Under the pieces are notes generated by a model. That model had not been told where the DNA came from and searched no databases. It saw only the letters and a program-made list of their open reading frames with translations. From NCBI GenBank assembly GCA_022393335.1, contig JAJEKB010020803.1, positions 756,940 through 820,939 on the forward strand: a DNA stretch of 64,000 nt, read 5' to 3'. The DNA is from Macrotrachela quadricornifera. Taxonomy: Eukaryota > Rotifera > Eurotatoria > Philodinida > Philodinidae. The first letter of the stretch is position 1. Each line of letters starts with the position of its first letter. A program made the translations under genes and the position numbers. Below are positions 24,656 through 64,000 of this stretch, one piece after another.

Positions 24656-26872
24656 AACTGAGGCAATTATATTTCGTGTATTTCAGTAAAGGAACAAGTG
24701 AGCCAGTCTCCACCGCACCGTAGTTGTACTATATGGAGTAGAAATAACTTCAATTTTCAGACAACTCAATATGTTCTTAAAATCTGAAAGTTTTCATGTA
24801 TTGGAAATACCAATCAATGCTGCCTTTTATCATAGGTGTATATTTAATAGTCTCAAAGACTACATTGTTTTGGGGAAACATAATTATTAATGATGTACCT
24901 AACTTCCGTTTCTTCTTCGCAAACTATGACATAGATATCGTAAGGCTATTTTGGACTAGACTTTTACATCATGGAATTTATCTCTTAATAAATGTTTATT
25001 TATAAATAACGTTCAATAAGTAATAATTCATTACTTTTTAGGTTGAGTGAATATTTGAGTAGTACCATCCAAAACACATGTCATATCAAGGTCGAGAATA
25101 GAGCCACTAAGACTGAAGCAAATCATTTCGGCTTTTAGGTGAAGAAAGAGCATGGTGTGAACTTTATTTTCATATAAATAGATTTAGAATTACTCATGTA
25201 CTTGAATGTTCGATAAGGAACAGGACAAACTTTAGTAGGCAGTTTTTAGGCTATGAAGTTCAAACAGGACTGCCAGCTGTACTCCATTTCAACTCTTTGT
25301 ACCTTTGGAATACGCATTTTTGTACCACATTTAAGCTTTTTACATCTTCCACTACTTATGAACTACGTGTCAACAGAGACTCTGGAAACCATCTGTTTGA
25401 GCCTTAAATTATATTCTAGAACTGTTCTTTTTTTACTTCTTAATAGCGTGCTGATAGTCAAACTGAGTTTTCGATAGAGCAATAAAATGATGTGTTAAGA
25501 TTTTTGCTATAATGACGAACGAAAATGATCGAATAAATGAGAAAGTAACAAGAATAGAGTTAGTTAACTCAAACAGTACCAAATCTAACGCATCAGATAT
25601 TAATTTGATTCTTCAAAAAATAATAATAATCCATTCACAGTTCTCCGCAGAAAAGCTCTTGACAATATGGAAAACCTAAAGGTTTCCCTCGGCAACATCT
25701 GAAGTTAAATTATAATCTAAAACAAGAAAGTCACAGATGAATGGAAAAATTTTTCGCTTCACAAAGGTCAACAACGACAAGGACGTATCTCATGTTTAAG
25801 AAAAGTATTTTTGATTTTTTCGAAGTGTTGATTTTTCTCAGTTTTACTTACACTAATTTTCACCAAAACCATCATTTTTGGCAGCAAAAGTGTATAACAA
25901 ATGTTCTAAATTGAATGTAAGAAGGATATTTCTATTTTACTTATTCTTTTCTATATTTGTTTTTTCCTCATCAATGTCTCATTTACTTTCGAACAAGTGT
26001 CGTTTGTATAGCTGTCTTCAATGACAATATTGTAAAGAAAAGTTTTTGTATTGTGGACCAATGTCTTGTTTTTGAGTAGATTCACAACTGTACGCACGTT
26101 TCTTAGTAGTTTGAAAGGAAATTCTCATTGAGAGAGGTTATCTGAATCATAAATTGTATATAACTATTCCTGAACTCCAGCTCTCTCTCTAAATAGAAAT
26201 TGATTGAAAGTGACAAGATTTTCGTGCACATTGGGACCAATAGAAGATACTATCCAGCGCTAATGCGAAACTCTTTCAGTCGCAAGTATCTCGAGTCATT
26301 TTTTGTGTAACAACGCTTACGTTAGTTAATCTCGATAGACAGTGTTCTTTTTAATGATCATATTTACTTTATTTACTGAAACGTTTTCTTTAGAAAACAC
26401 TTAATTTCTGGGCTTATTGTTTGCGATAAAACAATATTTTCGATAATTTTTTGCAAGAGGAAAAGTCAATAGGAAGTCTTTTATGGGACTACTTTGATTT
26501 TTGGAGAAAAACTATGTATCCAATAGATGTACCCTATTTAGAAAAATTTTGTACCTCACATGTACGCCATTTGAGACTTATGAGATGGCGACCCTAAATT
26601 CAAAGGAAAAAAATAAGTATAATCCAACATAACTTTGTTTCTACTCAAGCAATCAGGATGCGGATGGTCCCACTGGCCCACATTCTTAGTGAAGTATGTG
26701 CACACAAACTTTTAGAGCTCTGACACTCATGACGGTTAAGATTCGGAGAGGAAGGGAGCGACTGGCTCATGCTTGTATTCTAACTACTATGCTCATTCGT
26801 CACGAACCTATGATGTGAACTATATTGTCGTATAGAAATTTGTTTCTTTACATCTATCCGAAAATATCAATT
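24656..26872. other. Intergenic, no gene seen
   Basis: Short hydrophobic frames (24796-25005, 25253-25477) lack a start context and any domain. No strong repeats were found. Confidence 0.4.
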
Positions 26873-26886
26873 CTTTTTTTTTTCAG
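26873..26886 (+). promoter_or_regulatory. Splice acceptor just upstream of the monooxygenase ATG (candidate trans-splice site)
   Basis: A T-rich run ending in ttttcag (AG at 26885-26886) lies 32 nt before the ATG at 26919. Bdelloid rotifers are known to add a spliced leader to many mRNAs, so this may be a trans-splice acceptor. A 5' UTR cis-intron would look the same. Confidence 0.5.
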
Positions 26887-26918
26887 TTAAAGCAAGATAT
26901 TTACAAACAAGTACCACA

Positions 26919-28205
26919 ATGTCTTTGTCAGAATGCTGTGCTGATGATACTAACATAAGGAACATAATCGTAGTAGGAGGAAGTCTCGGAGGATTATTTG
27001 CAGGGGTAGCATTCAAACGACTGAATTACAACGTCCATATCCTAGAGCGAAATCCTACACCTCTTTTACACGACCAAGGTGCAGGTATCATTGCAGGTGC
27101 AGAAACTCGAGAATACATCGAAAAGTTTGACAAATCGAAACGGGACATCGTAGTAAAGTCGGCATTTCGTCACTACCTCGATATTCAAGGGAACGTCATA
27201 CATCGAGAAGATTGGCCTCAATACATGACTAGTTGGGATTTAATATATTATATTCTACGAGCGAATTTCGATGGGATCAAGAGTGAATACTGTAAAGTGC
27301 CAGATCAAGCAGATGGAAAAGCAATTTACGATTATGACGCAAACGTAATTGATATGAAAGTCGAGAATGATCAAGTAACTGTATTCTACGAACAAAATAA
27401 TCAGAAAAAGTCAATAAAAGGCGACATCTTGATCGCAGCAGATGGATCGTCGAGCAGCATTCGAACACTACTGTATCCAAATATCGAACGAAAGTATGCT
27501 GGTTATGTGGCCTGGCGTGGAACAATTCTCGAATCAGAAGCATCTGAATCCCTCAAATCGACTTTCGTCGAATGCTTCACATTCTTTCATGCACCTGGTA
27601 CGCAAATTCTCTCCTACGTCATTCCTGGACAGAATGGAACAATAAAACGAGGAGATCGGTTGATAAATTGGGTATGGTATTGCAATTGTGAGAATTTATC
27701 TAAAGTGCTCATCGATTGCGACGGAAAAACACATCGATGGACATTGCCTCTTGGAAAGGTCGATCCTAAAGTCTGGAATGATCAAAAAAATCTTGCAAAT
27801 GACATCCTACCGCCTCAGTTTGTAGAGTTAGTCAATAAAACGCGGTCGCCATTTGTACAAGCTATCACTGATGTTCTTACACCACAAGCATGTCACTATG
27901 GCGGTAGAGTTGTGCTTGTTGGTGATGCATTAGCTGGATTCCGACCGCATACAGTTGCTAGCACGAGTCAAGCTGCTTTTCATGCCCTACAATTGTGTGA
28001 GAACATGAAAAGCTGGGATGAATGGATGAAGAAGAAGAATTTATATGAAGAGACTGTGATGGAGTTTGCAAGACATGGTGTTCAGCATGGACAAAAGCTA
28101 GGCACTGTATCTCAATTCGGCCATCACATACTCGATGGAAAGATGAGTATGGCTCCTCCATCAATACGGGACTGTGTATTGTGTTGTCGAACAGTTGGAT
28201 TATGA
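26919..28205 (+). CDS. FAD-dependent monooxygenase, 2,6-dihydroxypyridine 3-monooxygenase-like, 428 aa
   Basis: A class A flavoprotein hydroxylase: it would use NAD(P)H and O2 to hydroxylate an aromatic or heteroaromatic substrate. The Rossmann FAD motif is IIVVGGSLGGLFAG (16-29), followed by an acidic strand end, HILER (40-44). The DG motif is AADGSSSSIR (173-182) and the GD motif is VGDALAGFRPH (334-344). YAGYVAWRG (193-201), NWVWY and SPFVQAITD resemble the bacterial dihydroxypyridine/salicylate hydroxylase branch. The length (428) is normal for that group. The gene is a single uninterrupted exon, unlike the LRR and astacin genes, and such enzymes are mainly bacterial or fungal, so horizontal acquisition is likely. 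It has no targeting signal and the substrate is unknown. A likely poly(A) signal (AATAAA) lies near 28289. Confidence 0.88.
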   Translation: MSLSECCADDTNIRNIIVVGGSLGGLFAGVAFKRLNYNVHILERNPTPLLHDQGAGIIAGAETREYIEKFDKSKRDIVVKSAFRHYLDIQGNVIHREDWPQYMTSWDLIYYILRANFDGIKSEYCKVPDQADGKAIYDYDANVIDMKVENDQVTVFYEQNNQKKSIKGDILIAADGSSSSIRTLLYPNIERKYAGYVAWRGTILESEASESLKSTFVECFTFFHAPGTQILSYVIPGQNGTIKRGDRLINWVWYCNCENLSKVLIDCDGKTHRWTLPLGKVDPKVWNDQKNLANDILPPQFVELVNKTRSPFVQAITDVLTPQACHYGGRVVLVGDALAGFRPHTVASTSQAAFHALQLCENMKSWDEWMKKKNLYEETVMEFARHGVQHGQKLGTVSQFGHHILDGKMSMAPPSIRDCVLCCRTVGL

Positions 28206-49402: not shown

Positions 49403-49841
49403 TCATATTGTGTAAGTGATTTTCAAGTATGGTAAAGCTTGACCATAACGATACACAATATATTCATTGAATCCCTGCAATGTTCCTACGATTGAATGAT
49501 GTTCCAATGGTGCCGCACGCAGTGTTTTATCAGTTTTTGCTTGTTTTGACTCCTTGCCCAACAAAACTTTAGCGTAAAATATAACACGTGTCTTACCAGT
49601 TCCACCTTCTACCGTATAGGTATGCGACTTTGCAGGATCATCAGCAAAATATGCACCACTACCTAAAACATTCAAAACAACAAGAAAATCATTAGTACGA
49701 TCATCGTTAATTGAGAAAATCTTGCAACTTCTCTTGTACACTGGGGAAATTTATGTTATGTTAAGCTCATTATAAAACCGTTAGTTAAGATTTTGATCTC
49801 AGCTGAAAGAGTTCCCATATTCTACCCAACAAATAACAATC

Positions 49842-49876
<35 letters not shown>

Positions 49877-52800
49877 TGATTACAGATTTCTTTCTCATCT
49901 AAGAATGTCGAAAAAGAACAAACTCAACTATTCCTTTATTTATGCTATTTCTACTGACACTCTTTATTGTTAATATAAATCGAGAAATGTGAATCTTCAT
50001 CTAAAGATTTATATTTAGATTTATGAAATTTTGAAACTTCGGTTTTCATTTGACTTCCATAGTCTCAAAATCAAAACACATGATTTTCTCGTCCATATCA
50101 GAGGAAGGTCAATTAACATAATGATTTCAAATAATATAGACAGTAAATTTTATACTAAATGATTACCAGTTCATAATATGAGAATGAGATATATCATTAG
50201 AGCAACTTCCAAATTCGTACTCTATTACGTCTCTAACGAGAAATAAATCGCATTTTTCGAAAAGTCTAGACATGCTCAAAAAGAAACTTTTGATCTCCTC
50301 TCTTTATATCACATCGGTAAAGCTAGTGTTTTAGTCAGAACTACTTGAAATGAAGATTCTGAAGATCGATTTTTTTAGACTATCCTATATATAAAAATTA
50401 CCTGTAGCAAAATTTAGTGTCATAAAACACACGAGTCGTAGTTTCGTGGAGTTATATTGCTAAAAAATAATTATGTCTATATATGTGTGACTTTTTACAA
50501 ACACCTCGGAATAACTTTCTACTTAACTTGAACTGGCACACTTTTAGCAAAAAAAAACATTTCCTGAGACACGTTCTAAAAGAGAATGTTGAAATGTTTC
50601 GGGGTAGAAACTTTGATTCACCCCCGCACAATAGATAGAAAAAGGAGATCAGGAACAATTTCCAATTGCCAAACCGCTTTTAAATCGAGACTATATGCAT
50701 TATATAGGCCTTAATAAGCTATGAATATCCTGAAAAGAGTTCATGCTTTTAGCTTATTTCTATCGAAATACTTAATTTTTATGGCATTTTTTAGCAAAAA
50801 GCCGTGGTCCTCCTTAGGTTCACCTGAAAAATTGATTTTCAGGTTTCGACTTGAAACTTTGTATAGAGAAAGATCTTAATGAGACTAGTCTAAGCTGAAA
50901 GTTTCAGATCTTTCAGTTCCTTCTATCTCGAGATACAAGTACAAGAAAAAGTACTCTTTTTCACATCACTTATAGCACCAAATATTAAGTATTCATATTT
51001 AAGGATAAGACTCATGTTACGAATACCGAATCACTTTTAGCGGTGAACCGGTGGTTAATCGTAGTTTACCGGAGAAAACCAGCGACTAACCGGTAAAACC
51101 GGACAAACTGACGGTTAACCGCAGTTTATCGAAAGAAAGCGGCGGTAAACCGATAATATTCCGATGAACTATATACGATAAAAAGAGGATGGCTATATAG
51201 AATGGAAAAAAAACATATGTACATGTGCTCATGTGCTGTATTATTTATTTTGCTTTTTTACTTACTCAAAGACACAAATGCACCTTAACGACGAAAACGT
51301 TCAAATAAGCATTAATATTTTTTTATATTTAAGTTTTTAACATTTACTTTTTATATTAATTTTTTGGAAATTTATTAAATTATCTTTTTAATTCTATACC
51401 TTTTCAGATTCATTCTTTTAATACTTATTGTTTTTTAGATTTATTTTCTTTAAATTTTTTTAATCTTGATTTTATTAATTTTTATAGTAGTTTTTGGAAA
51501 TTTATTTTTCTGAAAGTTTTTTAATTTTTTGTATCCTTACATTTTCTTGTATTTTTATTTTGCGTGAAATAAAAATCCTATGAATCTAAAAATGTCTGTT
51601 AATTTTTGCTATCCATACATTCAAAAAATAGAACAAACGGCGCATTGGCTAGTTGCACATACCACCATCGGTTAACTCCAGTTCACCGAAAAAAAACCGG
51701 CGGTATACTGCGGTTTACCGACGGGTTTTTCCTCTTCAAGCGTTCTCTTTATGTTGTTTATTTATCAATAATTTTCACGGATATTATGGTTCCATAGTAC
51801 ATGTGAAAGTTTCTCGATAAACAAACAACATAAAGAAAGCGGTTGAAGGAGGAAAAAGCCGTCGATAAACCGCCAGAAACTGGTAAAAAACGCGGAATAT
51901 TGGCGATATACTCTTCGGTTCTACGATCGGTTTACCACCGGTTAACCATCGGTTCACGAGACATGGGTAGTTACTATCCATTTCAAAACAGAATGCAGTC
52001 GGTTGCATGTTGAATAACTTGGCAACGCTGATAGCTAACGAGTTCGGGTTTTCACTGTAAGAAAGAAGAAACCTGGAGCCATTTATCTTTCGAATATTGT
52101 ATTGGTCGAAATCTTTTGCAAAACTATCATTTTTGCAGATCTTTCCTAAAAATACGTGAAAATAATATAATCATTCAATGAAGCTAAAAAATGGAATTTT
52201 TTACTTTTTGGTCTGAAAGAAAATATTTGCTTTTTTAGCTAGGTAATTTTCATTTTCTAGTAAAAAAAAATTGCAAAAATAATAGTTTTCCAAAAGATCC
52301 CGTCCAATACAATATTCGAAAGATAAATGGCCCCAGGTTTCCTCTTTCTTACGGTGAAAATCCGAACTCGTTAGCTATCAGCGTTGCTGAGTTAATCAAT
52401 AAGCAACCGACTGTATTCTATTTTGAAATAGATAGTAGTTATAATGAAAAAAAATCACCTTTGACACTTATTATTCGAAAGACTAATACGAAGAATCATG
52501 TGGACAAAATGGTGATTAATGAACACGATACTGAATGAGAAAATTTACGTTTTACTTGACACTTATTATATAGAGACAACAAATCGACTTTATCGCATAA
52601 ATTTTTAAGAATCTGAGGCAAACAAATAGTGATCAGACATGTATATTAATCATACATAGATATCTTAATAATAAATATTGAAGTTTAATTTTAGAACTGT
52701 TTTAGTTTAGATTATTTTAAGAAAATATAAAATTGACTTGTTAAATAATTGATATATTTGTATGAGATATCTGAAAAAAGAACATCATTTTAGGCTAGAC

Positions 52801-55800
52801 ATATTTCGAAATGCATACCATATAAGTCTAATCTTAATTAGAAAATAATTGAACATTTTATGCTATGAGTGTTCCCGGATATAATTAAATAATTGAAGAT
52901 TAATTCATTGATTAACTTACCCCAGTTTCCATTTTGACTGAAATATCGATCATCAAAACCATTATTTTGTATCCCTTCAATTGCATCTCCATATGTTCCA
53001 TGAAATAGTTCTCGTTCATTTGCATCACGCTTTGAACGTTGCTTCTCAATTATGTCTTTCATTGCTACATATAGTTCTACTAAACTTGGATTCTTTATTT
53101 CTTCAATCGATTTGATTGTGATATTTCCTATTTTTTTCATTTGTGTTTCCACATCTTGGTATAATTTATCTGTTGATATTAAAGGTACTAGAACAGACCA
53201 ATACTTTGGATCTGGATTGGGTATAACATGTAATGGTTGTCCTAGTTGTGTCCAATGACGAATATTTACCATTTTATTAATACGTTCCGGAAGTGTAGCA
53301 TCATCCGAACGAAGTATTTGAAAACGTTTTTTTTTAATATTATCAACAATAGTTTCAAGTTCAATTAAATATGGTTTTTGTTGAATATCAACACGCATTC
53401 CTAATTCATGTGTATAATTTTTTTCTAATGATAAATTATTAACATCAAAATCAATACGATCATGTGTTAATGCAACATGTGGTTCAATTAAATCCATTGT
53501 GAATGGTCCCGTTGGAGCATCTTCATCAATTAATAAAACATATCTCCAATTTTGCCGAAAGACTTTGCATGTTATGTTATATTTGTGCAATTCATCATGA
53601 AATTTCTCAATATTAAAATAACTATGTGTTGGTAAATGACAATCTAAATCGGCTGGAACGACTTCCCGATTCATATATGGTAAATTATTATTGTACTCAA
53701 TCCAATCCTTTGGAGTTGCTGGTAGGGGAGGAATAGTTGGTCTTGATATATAATTGCCAACGACCCAATCACGTACAAAACCACCTTCAAGTTTGCAAGA
53801 AAACATAGTAACAGCAATCCAAGCTACAGCTTCCATTCGTGTTTCACGACTTGCATTTGGACCTTTGATACTATTATATAAATCTATAGCTGTTCGTTTA
53901 GGATCAGTTATACGAGAAATTCGTTCTTCAATATCATGATATGTTGCACGTACTTGAGGACGAAATACACGTGGAGGAACACCTATATATCATATAGAAA
54001 ATTAATATGAAAAATCTTATACATGGAACAACAATGGGATTTATTTCATTTTTTGAGTATATCTCGACAATAATCTAACATAAAAAATATTCATTATCTT
54101 AGCTTAAATACTTTTTTTTCGAAAAGGTAGTCTTAATGATTATCAGAGATTCAAATAAATTATCAATTTTATTTATCAAAATTTTTAATAGAAAGTTTCA
54201 TTTTTGGAACAGCAAATCTGAATATCAAATTATAATATGAAAAATCTTTGATTGTCTATTTATTGATTTATTTCAATTTATCTATCTGTTTTTGTAAGTT
54301 AACTTTTGCACATTTTAACTGTTCTAAACTTTTTTTACACTCATATCCTCATTTTGTAAGTTAGTATACAATCCGAATTGACAGATGTTCCAAATTTTTT
54401 CGAATTTCTGACATTTTTTTTTGTTCCCATCACATTTCAATTATTTTTTAACACTCTAAATATATTCTTTCTTATTGGATAGAGGTTTAGTATTTTCTGA
54501 TGGTAATTTATCAAAAAGAATCATGATTTTTCTTATTCTTTTATATGAAATTTAAAAGAAATGATAACTATTATTTTCATTTAAATATATATTTTACGAA
54601 GGTAAAGAATAGCCTTATTCGTAAGTTGGTTAAGAAAGCTACACCTAAAGTGCTGATAAAGGACGCAGAATATCGAAATTTTTCGGATTTTTGAGTTTCC
54701 CATCTGATTATCCTATGATACAATTGTGTGCTCGTCTCTACTTGAAATATCCTATTAAACTATGTCATCAATTAATTTAGAAAGTTTTTACTCAAAAGTG
54801 AAGTTTCTTTTCTAAATGTTAATATTAATCTTTTTGTTTCATGTAATAGTTATATAATTCTACTGAATCTATCGATGCTTAGCTTATTCATGATATTTTC
54901 AGAAAGATAACTTCGTTCTCATTTTTATTAAGATATTTTTTGGTTTGTTTTCCGTCATTATTATATAAGGTAGGGATGGGACTTTACCTTTACTTTACTA
55001 GTAATTACGTAAGTACTTATAAGGGAAGGTCTATAAGTGTGACTCTCCGTTTTGAATCGGATATTTGTCATTTTGTAGAGCTTAGTGAGTACGGTAACCG
55101 CGTATAAAGGATTTCTCCCCATGGTGAACTTTTTAGGAACAACGAGCTTCCATACTTTCTGAAAAATCATCATAAGACTCTTAAGTGAAGGGTTGAATTT
55201 TAATATTGTAAAAGCAAAACATAGTATTGTTCAGGCCAATCTGAGGTTATCAATGATGCTTTTTCATATGGCTCGAACAATATTATGTTTTCTCCTTGCA
55301 GTATTAAAATTCAACCCTTCACTTAAGAGTCTTATGATGATTTTTCAGAAAGTATGGAAGCTCGTTGCTTCTGAAAAGTTTACTATGGGGAGAAATCCTT
55401 TATAGGCGGTTACCATATTCACTGAGCTCTACAAAATGACAAACACCCGATTCTAAACGGAGAGTCACACTTGGGGACCTTCTCTCGTTACTTACGTAGT
55501 TACTTGTAACTAGGTAACTACCGTATTCATATAATGATTGCTGGAGGGTAACTATCATGAGGTGCCGTTGGGTCCTCAACTGTTATACTATAGAGGTACC
55601 CTGGATCTTCAATAGGCATGCACCGAGCGCGGTTATTACCGGCTTCGGCCGTTTCCAGCACCGAGAATCTGGGAATAGCTATTGATAAATAACTCGTTTC
55701 CGTAGTCAGTTCTCTTGACTTTATTCAAGGTCATGATTTTGAAAGTAACCATCCTTTTCCACGTTTACCTCTTAATGCTGTTTCATTCTTTGCAATACGA

Positions 55801-58800
55801 GAAAGAAATTCTCTGGGCGTAACCTTATATCCTCCAATATTCTATTACGGGGTATCTTTATATCCTTAAATACTATATTATGACTAGGAACGGCACTTTA
55901 GCTTTTCTATTAGTTGAAAACCTGACGAATCAAATAGCGGGAAATTCTGACTTGCTTATTTCACGAATAGCCGTGGGAGCTTATTTAATGACTTTTGTAG
56001 AGCACTCTTAATAACCTCAAATTGGCTCAAACTACCTTATGTTCCGTCCTTCTTTTCATGGAGAAAAAACGTCTCGAAATCTGATTGGTCGAAAGTTCTA
56101 TATTAAGAACACCCTTATAGTTATAGCAGTTGAGGACCCAAGGGTACTCCATGATAGTTACCATTCAACAATGACTATATAAATACGGTAGTTGTCTAGT
56201 CACAAGTAACTATTGTAGTTACTTTACTTTAGTTACGTAATTAAAAGGTAAAGTAAATATCCTACCCATAATATAAGCATGTAAGGAAGCTATACAGGTC
56301 TGTTTGGAACTCTAAAATTAAATGAAATAGAACTAGTGGCGTATAGGGGTTGGACGGTTCAGTTCAGTTCCAAAGAACTAAACTGTTGGAACAGTTCTTT
56401 TGATAGGAACTGTTTGAAAATTTTCCCAAAACAGAACGATATTACTCAATATCGGAAGGATTATTCTCATAACGGAGCAATGCTTCCGGGTATTGAATAA
56501 TATTGTTCTATTTTGAGAAAAATTTCAAACAGTTTAGTTCTTTAGAACTGAACTAAATTGATCAATCCCTACTGATGTAACTAAAATTTTGTCTAAGGAG
56601 AAGGAATAGCAAGGCAGTATCTCAAATGTGATTTATTCGAATGATCGATTAATTTGTGAAATATGTTCAAATGGATTATGGAATATTGAAATAGCTTTGA
56701 CGTATTATAGTCAAGTTGAAATATAAAAATGCTATGACAGATAAAAAAGTTTATTTAACAATTTTCATTATTTACAAATGATAGACAGTCTCTTAAAATG
56801 AAAAAGTAAATGAATGAAGTAGAGACGATAATAATTACAGGTCATTTTTCTAGTAGATCAATAGGAAAAAATGTTATTGTTTAGATGATAGATAGAACTT
56901 TCTAGTTCAATATTATCAAATACAAATCTTTCATAGTTAAGTTATTCTTTTTGTTAAAAATATAATTTAATATTAACGAACGAAATACTGTTTATGAAGG
57001 CAAAAAAAATCAATATTATATTACTAGCAAATGTTTATTAGAAACTTTTTTGAACTAAGTCATATAAAGAAATTAGTAATTTTGAGAAAACTTTACATTG
57101 TAAAAGTGTAGAATCTAAAGAAGTTGAAAAGACAGAAACATTAGTTATCTGTATCTAACATTTAGACTAGACTACAATGAAAAAAATCTATGTGTAGGAT
57201 ATGGTCAATTGTTGATTCTGATGTAAAATTTCTATTCGAACTTATAATAATAAAGGAATCAATGAAAGAATGACATTCAGATAATTTATATAGAATAATG
57301 TAGTAAAATCGAATTGTTTATTTTTAACTTACCTGAATTTGGATGTCGAATAACAGCACAATGTCCTAACCATCTCAAGAATGTTTTGAATTCATCTTTG
57401 ATATTTTTATAATCGGAATGTCTGCCTATGACTTTGACTGTAATATCTTTTGTTGCTGTATTTGGATTAACAGTTATTTTTACTTGTCTCTCAGTTATCC
57501 ATCGGCGAATCATTGGTTTAAATATATGTACCATTTTTCCGACACTTTCTAAATTTCGTGATAAATTTATATATTCTGTTGAATTTTCTGGAAATTCATT
57601 TTTAAGTAAAAATTCCGATTGTTCAATTGCTAATTGTTGTAGAAAATGTAACTCAGCTTTAAGAGTAGTTCCAGCAATACCGTCTAATAATAGATTTGTA
57701 TTATTGGGTTTACTACTCGGATTCAATGATATAGAAATTGGTTGAAATTTCAATGTTGCATCTGATAATATATTATTATTTTTTAAATGATCTAATTCTG
57801 TATTATTTAATTCCAAATTTCGTTTAAGTGGATAAATAATCCATTCTAGTTGAAGTTCGCCAAGAAATGAAAGAATAGCTCCCGAACGAATCGAAGATAA
57901 ATAACGGATATCTTTTGCTAAAACAATTGAGACAGGCGACATACTTATATGACGAACAAGAGTCGATTGTGAATCTAAAACAGCAATGTTGTTATCAGTT
58001 GAATCATATCGAACATAATGATGATTTCTACGATATAATTCTTTTAATGAAACAAATACATTATCATAATAACCAGCTAATAATGATTTAGCAATTGATG
58101 GCCAATCACCAGATGTTATTTGAGATTCTTGATAATATACTTTTGATGATTTAAAAGATCTGTCTAAACTTTTATATCGTCTTCGTGCTTGTACAAGAAT
58201 ATGTTCAATACTACTGAGACCTTTCTTTTGACAAATAAGTTTCAAATCATATGCTCTGCCTGGAACAGATTGATCAACACATAAAATTTCTTGCATTACA
58301 TTAAATAATGTCATAAAATCACCATCTGAACTTTTTAAATTTTGTGGAATTGATTTTAAAAGAGTTGAAGTATTAAGAACACTTAAAATAGATGATAAAT
58401 AAATAAGATCACGTCCACAATCATATCTCGTAAGAGCAGCTAATACACATTTCGACATTGCTAATGAACCAAAATCGGGTAATTTAGAAAGTTCTTCACC
58501 TTCTTTTGTAAAATTTTCACTTGGACTGGCTTTCAAAATGCCTTTAAAAAGATAATTGAAAGCATTATGATCATACATATCTTATCTCAAATTTATATAT
58601 CATTTCAAAATTTAAAATAAATGTGCTTCAAATTGACTTTTATCCAAATAGGTCCTTCAATGTTCTTCTCAATTATATATCTCAAATTTTCTTCAGTTGA
58701 TACGAAGAAAAATATTTCCTACCTAATATTCTTAATTCTTCAATTGCATGATGAATTATTGTATCTTGTGGAGGATTAGGAAAATATTGTTTCATATATG

Positions 58801-61800
58801 TTATTCCTTGTTTTAATGGTGATTTTCTCAATCCAAATTCAATATTGATTAAATTCGATTGACATATTTGTGGTGTTGGATATTTTTTATCTTCAACTTT
58901 AAAATCATATAATGGATAATATTCTCCAGGTTGTGTTCTACCCAATCGTCCAAGACGTTGTTTTATTGTTGATTCAGCTGCTCGTTCTTGTTTTAGTATA
59001 GTTTGTTTTAAATCTGGATCATAAACAGGAATATTAATCATTCCTGTATCAATAACATATTTTAATTGTGGAAATGTTAATGAAGTTTCAGCAACTGTTG
59101 TTGAAAAGAAAACACTTCCATTTTCAATATAATCTTTTTGTGTTGATGCTTGTTGCGATTGAATAAGAGGATAAGCAATAATTACTCCACCAGTTATACT
59201 TTTCAATAATGAACAACATTCATTAACATCTTTAACAGAACTAACAAAACATAAAATTTGATCATGTCGTCGACATTGTTGATATAATTCTTGTACAAAA
59301 TTTAATATATTTTTTTTTGAAGGAGGATTTTCTTTTACATCATATCTTTTTCCTATTTCTGGTTTTTTAAATTCATCTACTGTAATTCCTTGTATATTAC
59401 GGAAAAGATTCGGTACAGATGGATCAAGTGTAGCAGATGAAATAATTAATTTTATTTTTGATTTAATATTTGGATTAATAGATAACATTCGTGCTAATAA
59501 TGCTAAACAATGATCAATATTTATTGAACGTTCATGAACTTCATCAATAAAGAAAACAATTGATTTATTTATATGAGTTTCATTTGTAATGAAATTTTCA
59601 TCATAGAGTAAACGTTCTTTTAGAAGACCATCAGTTACATATAAAACTTTTGCTTTTGGATTTTTTTCAGCACCACTAACGGCCCATCCGGCTAATTTCT
59701 CTGTATAAGTATTATTCATTGATTTCGTTATTTCATTAACACGATCACAAATTAATCTACAAGGTAAACGTCGTGGCTGTGTAACAATTATTTTATCATA
59801 ACCTTTTGCAGCAAGTAGAGCTGGTAATAATGTTGATTTTCCTATAAAAGAAAAAAAAAAGAAAGCTGTTAGCCCTATTCCTAACGAGATAAAAAATGTG
59901 AAATACGATAAAGCTGCATACATTATATAACAGATATCAAGAGTTTATCCAAATAAGTGTCTATAATGGTCTGCAGTCCTTTATAGATTACAGTCTATGT
60001 TAGAATACTAGGAGCTACTTCAGTGTCGGTCATTGTCTGCTATCCCTAGTGAATGTACTGAGAAAGCTTCACCAGGATACCTGATATGGGTACTTCGAAA
60101 AAGTCTCAGTAATTATACTGATGTAGGTATTACATTTGATACTCATATTAGTATGTTTACTGAACAAGTAATTGTATGAGTATCTACATGTGTAAATTTA
60201 CTGAGAAAATTTCTAGACAATACTCTAAATTTGTCTCGTTTGGTGTAGCAAACTGTTCATTCACTCATTTCTTCTGTGCACACAACTTAATATAAACAAC
60301 TAGATAAAACGTAAGAAATTAACTTTTTTTATACTATTTTTTTCGTTGATTATTTCTTGATTATTTACTAGTTGAGAACATACCGATCTCAATAGAAAAT
60401 AGAGACAGAACTACCTTGAAGTAGTCCGATGGATATCCGACCAACTCAGGTGCAGAGGTCATATTTTAGAATTGATCTGCTTGAATTTCCAGAATTGGAA
60501 AAATATCATAAAATGCTTTAAAAGAAAAAAAAATGAAAAAAGGGTCAGGGCGAGGTTCGATCATCGACAAACTGCAGTTTTGGCGTCTGGGTATCCGCCT
60601 CAGTACCTTATAGATATCTAAAAGTACTTTAAGGTATTCAGTACCCTAAGGTTTCTGTGACATATTTGGTAGCAGGGGACTTTTTTGGGTACACTCACCC
60701 TCAGTACATTCACTAGGAATGGTGTCGCTTACGGTCTGTCGGAGAGGGTGGTGGATCCAAATTTCTATCCTTAAAAACTTCAACATTCTCTTTCAGATTG
60801 TATATCATAAAAAAGATGACTTATTAAATAGTTGTATATTTATAGAATAATAAACCTGATCCAGTTGATGTTGCAATTGTAGTAACTGTATGTTTATCAA
60901 TTTGATCCAAAAGTTCGCATGCTGATTCAAATAAAGGCAATTGAATATTAAAGCAACAATAATAAATCATTAATCGTTTTAGTATATCAGGTATATGACC
61001 AAAATATTTTTGATTCATTTCAAAATCTAATTTAATTTGTTTAATAAATGTATCAAGAACAGTGATAGAATTTACACTTGGCTTATTTTCATGATAATTT
61101 CGTTGAAGATTAATATTATGTTCAATAAATTCTTCAAATGCTTGTTGTTTTATTGGTTGAATTTCTTTGGCAAATAATTTTTCATTTATAAAATTATCTG
61201 TTTGTTTGATAATTTCAGTTTTTATTGTTGTTAAATCATCTGAAATACATTTTCTAGTTAATGATGTTGCAAGATTTTCAATATAATTATCAAATAATTG
61301 AATGTATTCTTTTGATTTATCTTCAAATAATTGAATAAAATATTTAACATATTGTTTCCAATATTGTATTTTAGATTTAACCTTTAAAAGTTCCAATTTA
61401 GTAGATTTAATAATTTTAGATAACGATCGTCGGTAAAAATCTTTAGCTTTTTGTATTAATTGTATAAATTTTTTAATTCGTTGTAGAATTGTTTTGAATA
61501 TTTGATGATGATTTTGAAAACCAATAATAGTTACATTATATGTTATATTTGATCCATTAATAATTTCTCCAAGTGACATATTAGGTAATCTATCAGCAAA
61601 ATATTCATTAATTACCTCTCCTTTATCTTTCATATATTCTATAATTAATGATTGTTTAGGCGCAAGAAAATCTTGTATTATTTGTTTATCGATATTGTTG
61701 TACTTAATAACTTTAATAGAATTGACTATTTCTTTATTTTTCTTCTTTTGTTGTTCTTCTTGTGTTTTATAATTTTGCAATTCTCCAATTAATTTATCAA

Positions 61801-64000
61801 GATCTGAGATCTGTTTTGCTTGTTGTTCATTTTCTTTTTTAGCATTAGTTTGATTTTTTGTAGCGATTTCAAGTTTTTTGATTAATTCTTGTTTTTCTAT
61901 TTCTTTCATTTCAATAAGTTTGGCATTATTTATTTCCATGTTATTTATTTGTTTAGCAAGATCTGCTATTTCTTTGATCTTTTTCGTTTTTTCTTCTTCG
62001 ATTTCATATTTTCTTCTTTGAAGTTCTTCAGTTTTTTGTTTCATTTCTTTATTAGCGTTTTGCTTCATTTGATTTATTTCTTGTTCAAGTTTTAAGATTT
62101 CGTCAGATTTATCTTGTCTTTCTTTTTGAGCTTCATCATAGGCATTTTTAGTAGTAAGAAGTTCTTTTTCGAGATTTTGATTTTCTTTCTCCTTCTCTTC
62201 TAATTCCTTTTTAATTCTCTCTACCACTTCAGTAGTCTCTTCGATTTTCTGTTCCATATTTGTTGATAACATTTTAAGATCTGCAATTTTAATTGTTTGT
62301 TCTTCGAGAGATATTTGGTTTGATAAACTAGTACTTGTTGTTGGTTCTTCCTGTAACATATGAGCAAGACTTTTTTCATGTGTATTCAGTAGTGTCGTCA
62401 TTGAAAAAGATTCAATTGATGATTGATCAATGCTTTGATTATCTGTAGTTGTCGAATTAGTATCTTTCTCATTTTTAATATCATATAATGACCAATGTCC
62501 ATCCTGTGAAGATTCAATATTCTAAATAAAACAAAAGAAATTTTGTTTTAAATTTATCGTTAGTCGATACAGAATTTGATTGTCTACATATTGTTATAAG
62601 TTAGTTTAAAATAAAAGTAACGCTCATCTGAAAACTCGCTCAGCTCTTTCTCGTAGAAATCGTGTTTTTAAACTACCATCATGCTATTCATTTATAAAAT
62701 TAAAAAAATCGAAAGTCAGATTCAAGTTCCACAACTTCACCTACCTTTGACCAAACTTCATAAAAACAAATAGCTTTTATTAAAAATTTGTCGTTTGTTT
62801 AAAAAATTCAGGTTCAAAAAACTTTTAGAAAACAGGATTCAAATTTGAATTCCTCGTCCTCGATTACCCTTCGAACAACTCTGATAATTTTCTTTTTTTG
62901 TAAAGTAGTCCTTCGTGTAAGAAAATGATCCTCAAAAAAAATTTCAAGAAAATAACATCAGATTCGAATTCCTCGACTTCGATTACCCTTTGGTTAAGTT
63001 TTAATGGATAATATTAATAAAATGTTTTTTTGACCTTGTGCGGACATACAAGCAATCAATCAGACAATTTATGTTTGCAAGACTCTTCTCTACGAGAAAA
63101 GGAAAAATCAGAGACGATTTTAATAGACTTTATTCTGTAATATAATATCTGAAGTATTTTGTTAAAATATTTTTTGAAAAATCTTTCAGAAAAATAAATC
63201 AAACGTTATTTTAAATGTTGTCTATTTCATACATAAAAGAATATACATAGATTTAAAATATAATAGAAAGTTTTAAATTTAGATAAAATTTATTTACCTG
63301 ATCTGTGTTGTCATCATCATCATCGTCATCGTCATTTTTGGTTAAAATGTTTAGTGATGTAGGATCTTGATCATTTTCTTCTTCTTCTTCTTCTTCTAAT
63401 AGATCATCATCTGATTTTAAATTTGATGTTGTATGAATGATTTTTGATATTTCTCTCGATCGTTTTGTTGTAAAAGGTATTGGTTGAACATGAGTTAAAC
63501 TATCATAATTATCAAGTTCATAGATTTTGTTTTGACAGCGTTCATCATTCGAAATTATCTTTGGAATCCATCGTATGTAACCAAATATTGTTTTGTCTCT
63601 ATTTTCAAATGTAAACTCTTGAAGATCAAATATCAAATCAAGTCCTACAAATTGTAGATCGAACTTGATCTGCTTTCGTCGATAATTCATGGCTTTGTCG
63701 AGTTGTGAATTGGTATTTCTCGTACAGTTATACCAACATTTAAGCTGTAATTGAAAGTGACTACCATAAACTGTTGGTATCTGAATTATTTTCATAGGTT
63801 GTTGACTTTCTGTTTTGATTTCAGTATGTTTAATAAGCATTATTTGCCATCGTGCAAAACAATCAAAATTAAAAATGGATGAACCACGACATCGAACCCA
63901 TGCATTGGAATTTGTTGGATCACGATTCCTACCAGATCGGTAAAATTTAATAATTGAAACACTATAAATATTTGGAGGTGTGCCCAAATAGACTGAACGT
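49403..64000 (-). CDS. Giant fusion protein: coiled coil + DEAH helicase + nucleotidyltransferase-like + PARP; 5' end beyond window, 2,018 aa visible
   Basis: Exons 5' to 3': 63999-63298 (open to the edge), 62521-60856, 59841-58723, 58580-57333, 53982-52921, 49662-49403. All introns are GT..AG; the first junction is phase 0, the other four phase 1, and the joined frame has no stop. Residues 1-234: unknown fold ending in Glu and Asp runs. About 300-500: long charged coiled coil. P-loop STGSGKST across exons 2-3 (~786-793); TQPRR (Ia); DEVH (889-892); SAT (~924); TTVAETSLT (V); QRLGRLGR (VI, ~1084-1091); then HA2- and OB-like regions: a DEAH/HrpA-type RNA helicase. About 1645-1742: GGFVRD, ADLDCH and FTMD, like the metal-binding head of CCA-adding/poly(A) polymerases. 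C-terminus: PARP with LFHGT (His 1906), GAYFADDPAKSH (Tyr 1937) and NEYIVY (Glu 1999), the H-Y-E triad. The protein is probably an ATP-driven RNA-binding enzyme with ADP-ribosyl transfer and possibly nucleotidyl transfer. The weak point is the two ~3.3-kb introns; transcript data would settle it. Confidence 0.82.
49845..49873. repeat. (TA)n microsatellite
   Basis: About 14 uninterrupted TA units inside the last intron of the large fusion gene. Confidence 0.95.
50790..50940. repeat. Half copy of the 35558-36164 foldback family
   Basis: Blocks AGCCGTGGTCCTCCTTAGGTTCACC, split here as GCCGTGGTCCTCC and GGTTCACC, then GACTTGAAACTTTGTA, AGATCTTAATGAG and GAAAGTTTCAGATC, follow the same order as one arm at 35690-35830. 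No inverted partner is present nearby. It lies in the last intron of the fusion gene. Confidence 0.65.
51030..51955. repeat. CGGTTAACCG-rich element with a central palindrome
   Basis: Both flanks (51040-51170 and 51660-51955) are dense in short motifs such as ACCGGTGGTTAA, CGGTTAACCG, GCGGTAAACCG and GGTTTACC. A palindrome is centred near 51788, with arms 51715-51785 and 51795-51870 sharing TCTTTATGTTGTTTAT. Short-motif-rich ends of this sort are typical of non-autonomous hAT-like elements. It lies within the last intron of the fusion gene. Confidence 0.6.
51969..52441. repeat. Foldback element, ~180-bp arms
   Basis: The left arm, about 51969-52150, and the right arm, about 52265-52441, are inverted repeats. 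Shared: CAACGCTGATAGCTAACGAG, ATTTATCTTTCGAATATTGT, CAGTCGGTTGC, TTTTGCAAAACTAT-type blocks. It lies in the last intron of the fusion gene. Confidence 0.85.
54961..55520. repeat. Foldback element, ~240-bp arms
   Basis: The left arm, about 54968-55215, and the right arm, about 55295-55520, are inverted. Shared: GAGTCACACTT-type block, GTAGAGCTCAGTGA-type block, AAAGGATTTCTCCCCAT, AGAAAGTATGGAAGCTCGTT, CTTAAGAGTCTTATGATGAT, AAATTCAACCCTTCACTTAA. The frames at 54961-55173 (-) and 55193-55405 (+) are its arms. It lies in the 3.3-kb intron between the helicase and nucleotidyltransferase exons. Confidence 0.88.
55495..56272. repeat. Second inverted-repeat element adjoining/overlapping the previous one
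   Basis: The block at 55495-55605 (GTAACTACCGTATT, GGTAACTATCATGAGG, GGGTCCTCAACTG) is repeated inverted at 56117-56250. The outermost bases at 54961-55010 (AGGTAGGGATGGGACTTTAC) match in inverted form the sequence ending at 56272, so the two elements may be one nested composite. Same intron as above. Confidence 0.7.
56343..56571. repeat. MITE with GGTTCAGTTCAGTTC termini
   Basis: TAGGGGTTGGACGGTTCAGT at 56343 is mirrored by the complement of AACTGAACTAAATTGATCAA and CCCTA ending 56571. Inner blocks GTTTGAAAATTTT and AGAACGATATTACTCAATA are also mirrored. It lies in the same large intron. Confidence 0.75.
60045..60717. repeat. MITE-like insertion in the helicase P-loop intron
   Basis: CCTAGTGAATGTACTGAG at about 60045 is exactly complementary to CTCAGTACATTCACTAGG at 60700-60717. 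The rest of the intron is non-coding. The insertion explains why this intron is about 1 kb while its neighbour (58724-58580) is about 140 bp. Confidence 0.7.
62640..63010. repeat. Degenerate tandem repeat, locus 3 of 3 (in first visible intron of the fusion gene)
   Basis: Blocks such as CAAATTTGAATTCCTCGTCC / TCGATTACCCTTCG (about 62845) and CAGATTCGAATTCCTCGACT / TCGATTACCCTTTGG (about 62960) repeat every ~115 bp and match the family at 14450-15150. Confidence 0.55.

Follow-up and report, generated by a model that had tools for sequence, protein, structure and literature searches.

The DNA analysed here, hereafter the window, is a 64,000-nucleotide stretch of the bdelloid rotifer Macrotrachela quadricornifera corresponding to bases 756940-820939 of contig C4338 (JAJEKB010020803.1) in a 450-Mb assembly. 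Its minus strand carries a gene whose predicted product joins a DEAH helicase, a nucleotidyltransferase (NTase)-like domain and a PARP domain in one chain. An earlier note on this DNA had claimed six minus-strand exons with canonical splice ends, consistent phases and a stop-free frame. Reading of the splice ends confirmed the six exons at the positions claimed, with GT-AG introns throughout, intron phases 0,1,1,1,1 and a joined frame of 2329 residues whose sole stop is the last codon. The start at 63998 given for the first exon had to be corrected, since exon 1 (64971-63298) runs over the edge of the window and begins with an ATG 971 bases past it, at contig position 821910; its upstream portion was taken from locus L009. 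With this start the protein gains ankyrin repeats (residues ~124-243) and the beginning of a WWE-like module, both encoded outside the window.

The part of exon 1 lying within the window (63298..64000, residues ~324-558) completes the WWE-like module and also encodes an acidic stretch. Exon 2 (60856..62521, residues 559-1114) encodes a coiled coil, recognised by eye, the pre-helicase region and the first half of the Walker A motif (ATSTGSG). The motif is completed by KST in exon 3 (58723..59841, residues 1114-1487), which carries RecA1 and RecA2 with TQPRR, DEVH (from 59545), SAT and QRLGRLGR (from 58960). Exon 4 (57333..58541, residues 1487-1890) is predicted to form a winged-helix/HA2 ratchet and an OB fold, followed by alpha/beta KH-like modules. 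Exon 5 (52921..53982, residues 1890-2244) contains the NTase part, with GGFVRD from 53785, DLD at 53650-53642, FTMD (D at 53494-53492) and DFDVN, and 3' of it the first half of the PARP domain, with the catalytic H at 53002-53000. The second half, with the catalytic Y (49651-49649) and E (49465-49463) and the stop codon, lies on exon 6 (49403..49662, residues 2244-2329). Intron 4 (53983..57332, 3350 nucleotides) contains inverted repeats with arms at 55022-55238/55269-55485 and 55497-55587/56122-56212, and intron 5 (49663..52920, 3258 nucleotides) contains one with arms at 51972-52163/52246-52437. In the large inverted repeats at 51972-52437 and 55022-55485, the arms are 85-88% complementary.

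We considered whether separate neighbouring genes, one for the helicase and one for the NTase and PARP domains, had been wrongly merged. Such an artefact would be favoured by the 3.3-kb introns between exons 4 and 5 and between exons 5 and 6, with their inverted repeats, and by the absence of the PARP domain from the annotation of some database proteins of the fusion family. Intron 2, however, interrupts the Walker A motif itself (GSG|KST) and intron 5 the PARP domain, which reached 51.5 bits in Pfam when joined (cut-off 26.7), as compared with 33.3 and 16.9 bits for the separate halves. A second copy of the gene, on C1416, is ~95% identical and keeps every exon and splice site, encoding 2332 residues without a stop before the end. 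Within-exon gaps between the two copies total 12 nucleotides in exon 1 and 3 nucleotides in exon 4, so that the reading frame is kept. The raw synonymous divergence (dS) was 0.063 and the nonsynonymous divergence (dN) 0.027, for an overall dN/dS of 0.43, and dN was 0.004 in the NTase-bearing exon 5.

Further evidence came from paralogous loci. The same genome contains at least 22 loci matching the helicase exon (E < 1e-70), a count that includes haplotypes and one locus (C4454) with 9 internal stops. At 16 of the 22, a PARP match was found on the same strand less than 10 kb downstream, for a chance expectation of ~0.002 per locus; among the PARP matches listed, there was none at any of the 22 loci on the opposite strand or in the 10 kb upstream. 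Family size was judged from the helicase and PARP matches listed. The six other loci, C4454 among them, lack PARP among the matches listed; this would also fit the artefact, although such a count is no proof of absence. Finally, all 22 full-length relatives chosen from proteins predicted by others match ankyrin, Helicase_C and PARP, so that single proteins cover the whole chain. The intron phases, the split motifs, the in-frame C1416 copy, the paralogous loci and these relatives indicate that the six-exon chain did not arise by chance. We therefore rejected the separate-genes reading, which we regard as highly improbable, and retained the single polypeptide of the earlier note. As a side observation, contig C4568 holds five of the 22 helicase-exon loci.

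The DEAH helicase assigned in the earlier note from GSGKST, DEVH, SAT and QRLGRLGR was recovered, all four motifs (Walker A, DExH, SAT and QRxGRxGR) being present and Pfam Helicase_C scoring 32.2 bits (cut-off 23.5). RecA2 is followed, in the predicted fold, by a winged helix, ratchet and OB fold; the part of exon 4 beyond the OB fold (model residues 300-402) was barely covered by the fold comparison. The label HrpA was tried and rejected: the NCBIfam model gave 111.8 bits with exon 3 alone and 171.8 bits with the whole relative P0009, against a cut-off of 722.75.

For the NTase, fold matches were obtained with VIA-align on the Foldseek top 1000. The NTase head is predicted to adopt a fold of the CCA-adding/PAP I/TENT5 type, which upholds the reading made earlier from the GG..RD and DxD motifs. 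The matches at ranks 1-15 and 21 were titled tRNA-processing, CCA-adding, tRNA nucleotidyltransferase or FAM46/TENT5, with the exception of 3aql ('bacterial protein'). GG..RD, DxD and a third carboxylate were invariant in nine of nine divergent sequences, and the three D residues were kept in 195/197 (D1), 198/198 (D2) and 196/201 (D3) of the relatives covering each site. DUF5769 (Pfam) matched seven of the nine NTase sequences weakly (best 6.8e-05) and provides a lead only; no paper naming it was found in the literature search. Whether the NTase came from prokaryotes or viruses was examined by a single scan each of viral and genome contigs, seeded with one or two short peptide motifs. Each scan gave 46 pattern matches, none of which was confirmed; eukaryotes lie outside the scope of these scans.

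In the PARP domain the catalytic triad corresponds to H2217, Y2248 and E2310, in agreement with the H-Y-E reading of the earlier note, and was kept in 187/189, 89/92 and 80/82, respectively, of the relatives covering each site. No SAM domain was found among Pfam matches asked at E<=10 (filters drop most above 0.1), and the stretch preceding PARP is predicted to be the NTase fold; CCCH zinc fingers were likewise absent from the Pfam matches of the window protein. The order helicase, NTase, PARP, with intact active-site residues in all three modules, is thus carried by the joined frame, the motifs and the predicted folds. The chain also holds domains beyond those of the earlier note, namely ankyrin repeats, which Pfam matches place in the same chain as PARP, and the WWE-like module.

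Conservation was scored on a profile alignment of 231 proteins (242 minus the eleven HrpA-like rows P0110-P0120). In 49 of the 53 relatives covering all nine scored catalytic sites, these sites were intact. The distant family members are P0099, P0100, P0102, P0103 and P0241. Compared with four of them (P0099, P0100, P0102 and P0103), identity was 32-40% for RecA, 31-37% for the NTase and 29-36% for PARP, and it was 22-26% for ankyrin, 12-14% for winged helix/HA2, 12-19% for WWE and 5-9% for the coiled coil. Identity being highest in the RecA, NTase and PARP parts, the three enzymes form the constant part of the chain.

The family was delimited from the best 120 of 185 matches, in which P0110 onward are HrpA-like helicases. 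All organisms named among P0001-P0098 are bdelloid (Rotaria, Adineta, Didymodactylos), the closest named relatives of the window protein being from Rotaria; the same domain order thus occurs in other rotifers, as the earlier note had suggested checking. P0100 (EukProt, EG_transcript_144), which we take to be from Euglena gracilis, is 27% identical to the query over residues 1090-2329, of which it covers 100%; its profile matches are DEAD, Helicase_C and PARP, and ankyrin falls slightly below curated cut-offs. P0105, from the same EukProt set, has the helicase and, by eye, an altered NTase, and ends before PARP. When the NTase-PARP part of P0102 was used as query, 19 proteins matched: 13 bdelloid ones, P0100, and P0067, P0082, P0102, P0103 and P0241. 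A tree was built from the window copy, C1416 and 45 of the 242 proteins, 47 sequences in all. The window gene grouped with C1416 in this tree, with R. sordida and R. sp. Silwood1 joining next; paralogue groups mixed genera, so that several family members probably existed before the bdelloid genera diverged. As judged from predicted proteins, the fusion is a multigene family found in bdelloids, in a probable Euglena transcript and in a few protist-like sequences. Database entries already exist for many members, either as unnamed proteins or under the name 'Poly [ADP-ribose] polymerase'.

The genome encodes a second DEAH-PARP fusion (L042:942-7049, plus strand, contig C4569), one uninterrupted frame of 2036 residues. 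Like the window protein it combines a DEAH helicase and PARP with a WWE-type module; it differs in having its two WWE stretches (76.5 bits) best matched at the C terminus and, by eye, a Cys-rich RING/IBR-like stretch, and the GGF.RD motif was not seen in its letters. Open frames of 7011 residues (G000:C4163:213828-214613) and 4080 residues (G000:C3613:99322-100419, L038) each contain a further DEAH helicase match, with 29% and 28% identity, respectively, to the query exon. Within the window, two plus-strand open reading frames are mono-ADP-ribosyltransferase-like: 16846-18216 matches NAD:arginine ADP-ribosyltransferase (PF01129, 51.3 bits) and WWE (20.6 bits, just below the cut-off), and 38740-39867 matches the same two at 38.1 and 27 bits. 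A third (26814-28205, plus strand) is FAD-binding monooxygenase-like (PF22607, 166.5 bits).

The exon structure, frame, domain order and active sites described above, found again in the same chain of bdelloids and protist-like sequences, lead us to propose that the gene encodes one predicted three-enzyme protein, which may act in RNA surveillance, a role to which we give about an even chance. Its order would be ankyrin repeats, WWE-like module, coiled coil, complete DEAH/RHA helicase, KH-like modules, Pol-beta-superfamily NTase and tankyrase-like PARP. The ankyrin and WWE-like modules would serve in docking and probably in reading ADP-ribose. The helicase would bind and strip structured or stalled RNA, the NTase would extend or repair the RNA 3' end, and PARP would ADP-ribosylate the enzyme itself, the bound ribonucleoprotein or the RNA end. 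Partners bearing ankyrin or WWE modules, or more copies of the enzyme, could then assemble on the marked complex. Reference titles in a published article (PMC10057411) report that mammalian PARPs ADP-ribosylate RNA.

Several observations weigh against this reading. The earlier note had looked to profile searches for the helicase and PARP domains; Helicase_C and PARP were found, but Pfam DEAD (PF00270) was not reached in the window protein despite its RecA1 motifs, and it was matched in just 8 of the 22 relatives. The WWE module scored 8.8 bits (cut-off 21.1) and was recognised in one of 22 relatives; in P0067 it reached 42.1 bits, aligned at the same place. The NTase gave no significant sequence match to a known NTase family in Pfam or NCBIfam, nor did its alignment in a profile search of the PDB. 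Helicase residues were altered in two of the 53 relatives covering the nine sites, and two had Q for the PARP E, a replacement present in the distant members P0102 and P0103. Between the window copy and C1416, dN/dS was 1.02 in exon 4 and 0.89 in exon 6, values based on few changes.

The same protein could instead repair RNA damaged by desiccation or radiation: the helicase would free damaged tRNA or rRNA, the NTase would restore lost 3' nucleotides and PARP would signal or cap damaged ends. The top-ranked predicted NTase folds are tRNA 3'-processing entries, bdelloids withstand desiccation (PMC6264785), and a PARP14-like gene, not equated with the fusion family, appears in a table of the spaceflight study of A. 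vaga that deals with genes induced by radiation (PMC12220480). We nevertheless hold this role to be unlikely, as the probable Euglena and other distant members need not share desiccation biology and no tRNA-specific module was recognised in the chain. A comparable, equally low probability is given to innate defence against RNA viruses or transposons, in which a nucleic-acid-sensing PARP of the ZAP/PARP12/14 kind, with its own helicase, would have expanded into a multigene family. The number of helicase loci, haplotype copies and the interrupted one included, the paralogue groups mixing genera, the greatest divergence falling in the coiled-coil, WWE and pre-helicase parts, and the two WWE-ART open reading frames of the window are consistent with defence, and interferon-regulated PARPs are discussed as foreign nucleic acid sensors (PMC10057411). 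The overall dN/dS between the two copies, in which diversifying selection was not seen, and the strong conservation of the enzymatic core out to the probable Euglena protein argue against it.

The pol-beta superfamily includes enzymes that modify proteins and small molecules. The NTase might therefore add a nucleotide to a protein or make a signal nucleotide, the chain then being a regulator, and the failure of profile searches to match RNA NTases would agree with this. We judge it quite improbable, given that nearly all fold matches bear tRNA-processing, CCA-adding or TENT5 titles and that the domain follows a DEAH RNA-helicase core. Beyond RNA surveillance, we entertain tentatively, as possible though doubtful, that the protein is an ancient, patchily kept eukaryotic RNA-marking enzyme coupling unwinding, 3' nucleotide addition and ADP-ribosylation, expanded in bdelloids into an RNA-sensor repertoire; no counterpart of such a coupled mechanism was found in the searches made.

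The three RNA and ADP-ribose activities are familiar from separate proteins. If our reading is true, they are united in one machine, in an order fixed from the probable Euglena protein to rotifers. The RNA chosen by the helicase, the nucleotide added by the NTase and the target of ADP-ribose, protein or RNA, would then be open to direct tests. For bdelloids, which are known to tolerate desiccation and radiation, the family would also offer a sizeable, apparently unexamined subject for work on stress and defence.

No paper describing the helicase-NTase-PARP order was found in a literature search covering sources other than bioRxiv preprints and most subscription papers. The word helicase does not occur in the main text of a survey, published in 2014, that covers the PARPs of 249 species (PMC4245714). 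In their accessible text, the bdelloid repair paper (PMC6264785) and the A. vaga spaceflight paper (PMC12220480) mention PARPs and not the fusion architecture, which is equally absent from the corresponding portions of surveys of viral NAD/ADP-ribose systems (PMC9503650) and of jumbo phages (PMC7824862). The earlier note, which knew of no described animal protein with this order, agrees with the outcome of this literature search, but the protein belongs to a multigene family that is not confined to animals. Because the domains are known and no description was found, we regard the chain as a new architecture of known domains, widespread and, as far as the literature search shows, unstudied.

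Among known systems, tankyrase shares ankyrin repeats and an H-Y-E PARP domain, which provides the best solved relatives of the window PARP (2.9e-16). However, tankyrase has a SAM domain, which was not found in the window protein; the latter has few ankyrin repeats and places a DEAH helicase, an NTase and a WWE-like module between ankyrin and PARP. DEAH/RHA helicases such as HrpA, DHX8 and Prp43/DHX15 share the core motifs and the HA2 and OB folds, whereas the window protein falls far under the HrpA/HrpB equivalog cut-offs, has a KH-like extension after the OB fold and is fused to an NTase and PARP. Unlike class II CCA-adding enzymes, bacterial poly(A) polymerase and TENT5 (FAM46), its NTase has no detectable sequence membership and sits in a helicase-PARP chain. 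PARP12, PARP13 (ZAP) and PARP14, proteins tied to RNA and antiviral defence, combine PARP with a WWE-type module, to which the low-scoring WWE-like module of the window protein would correspond; in contrast, neither CCCH fingers nor macrodomains nor RRMs appeared among the Pfam matches of the window protein, which brings its own helicase and NTase.
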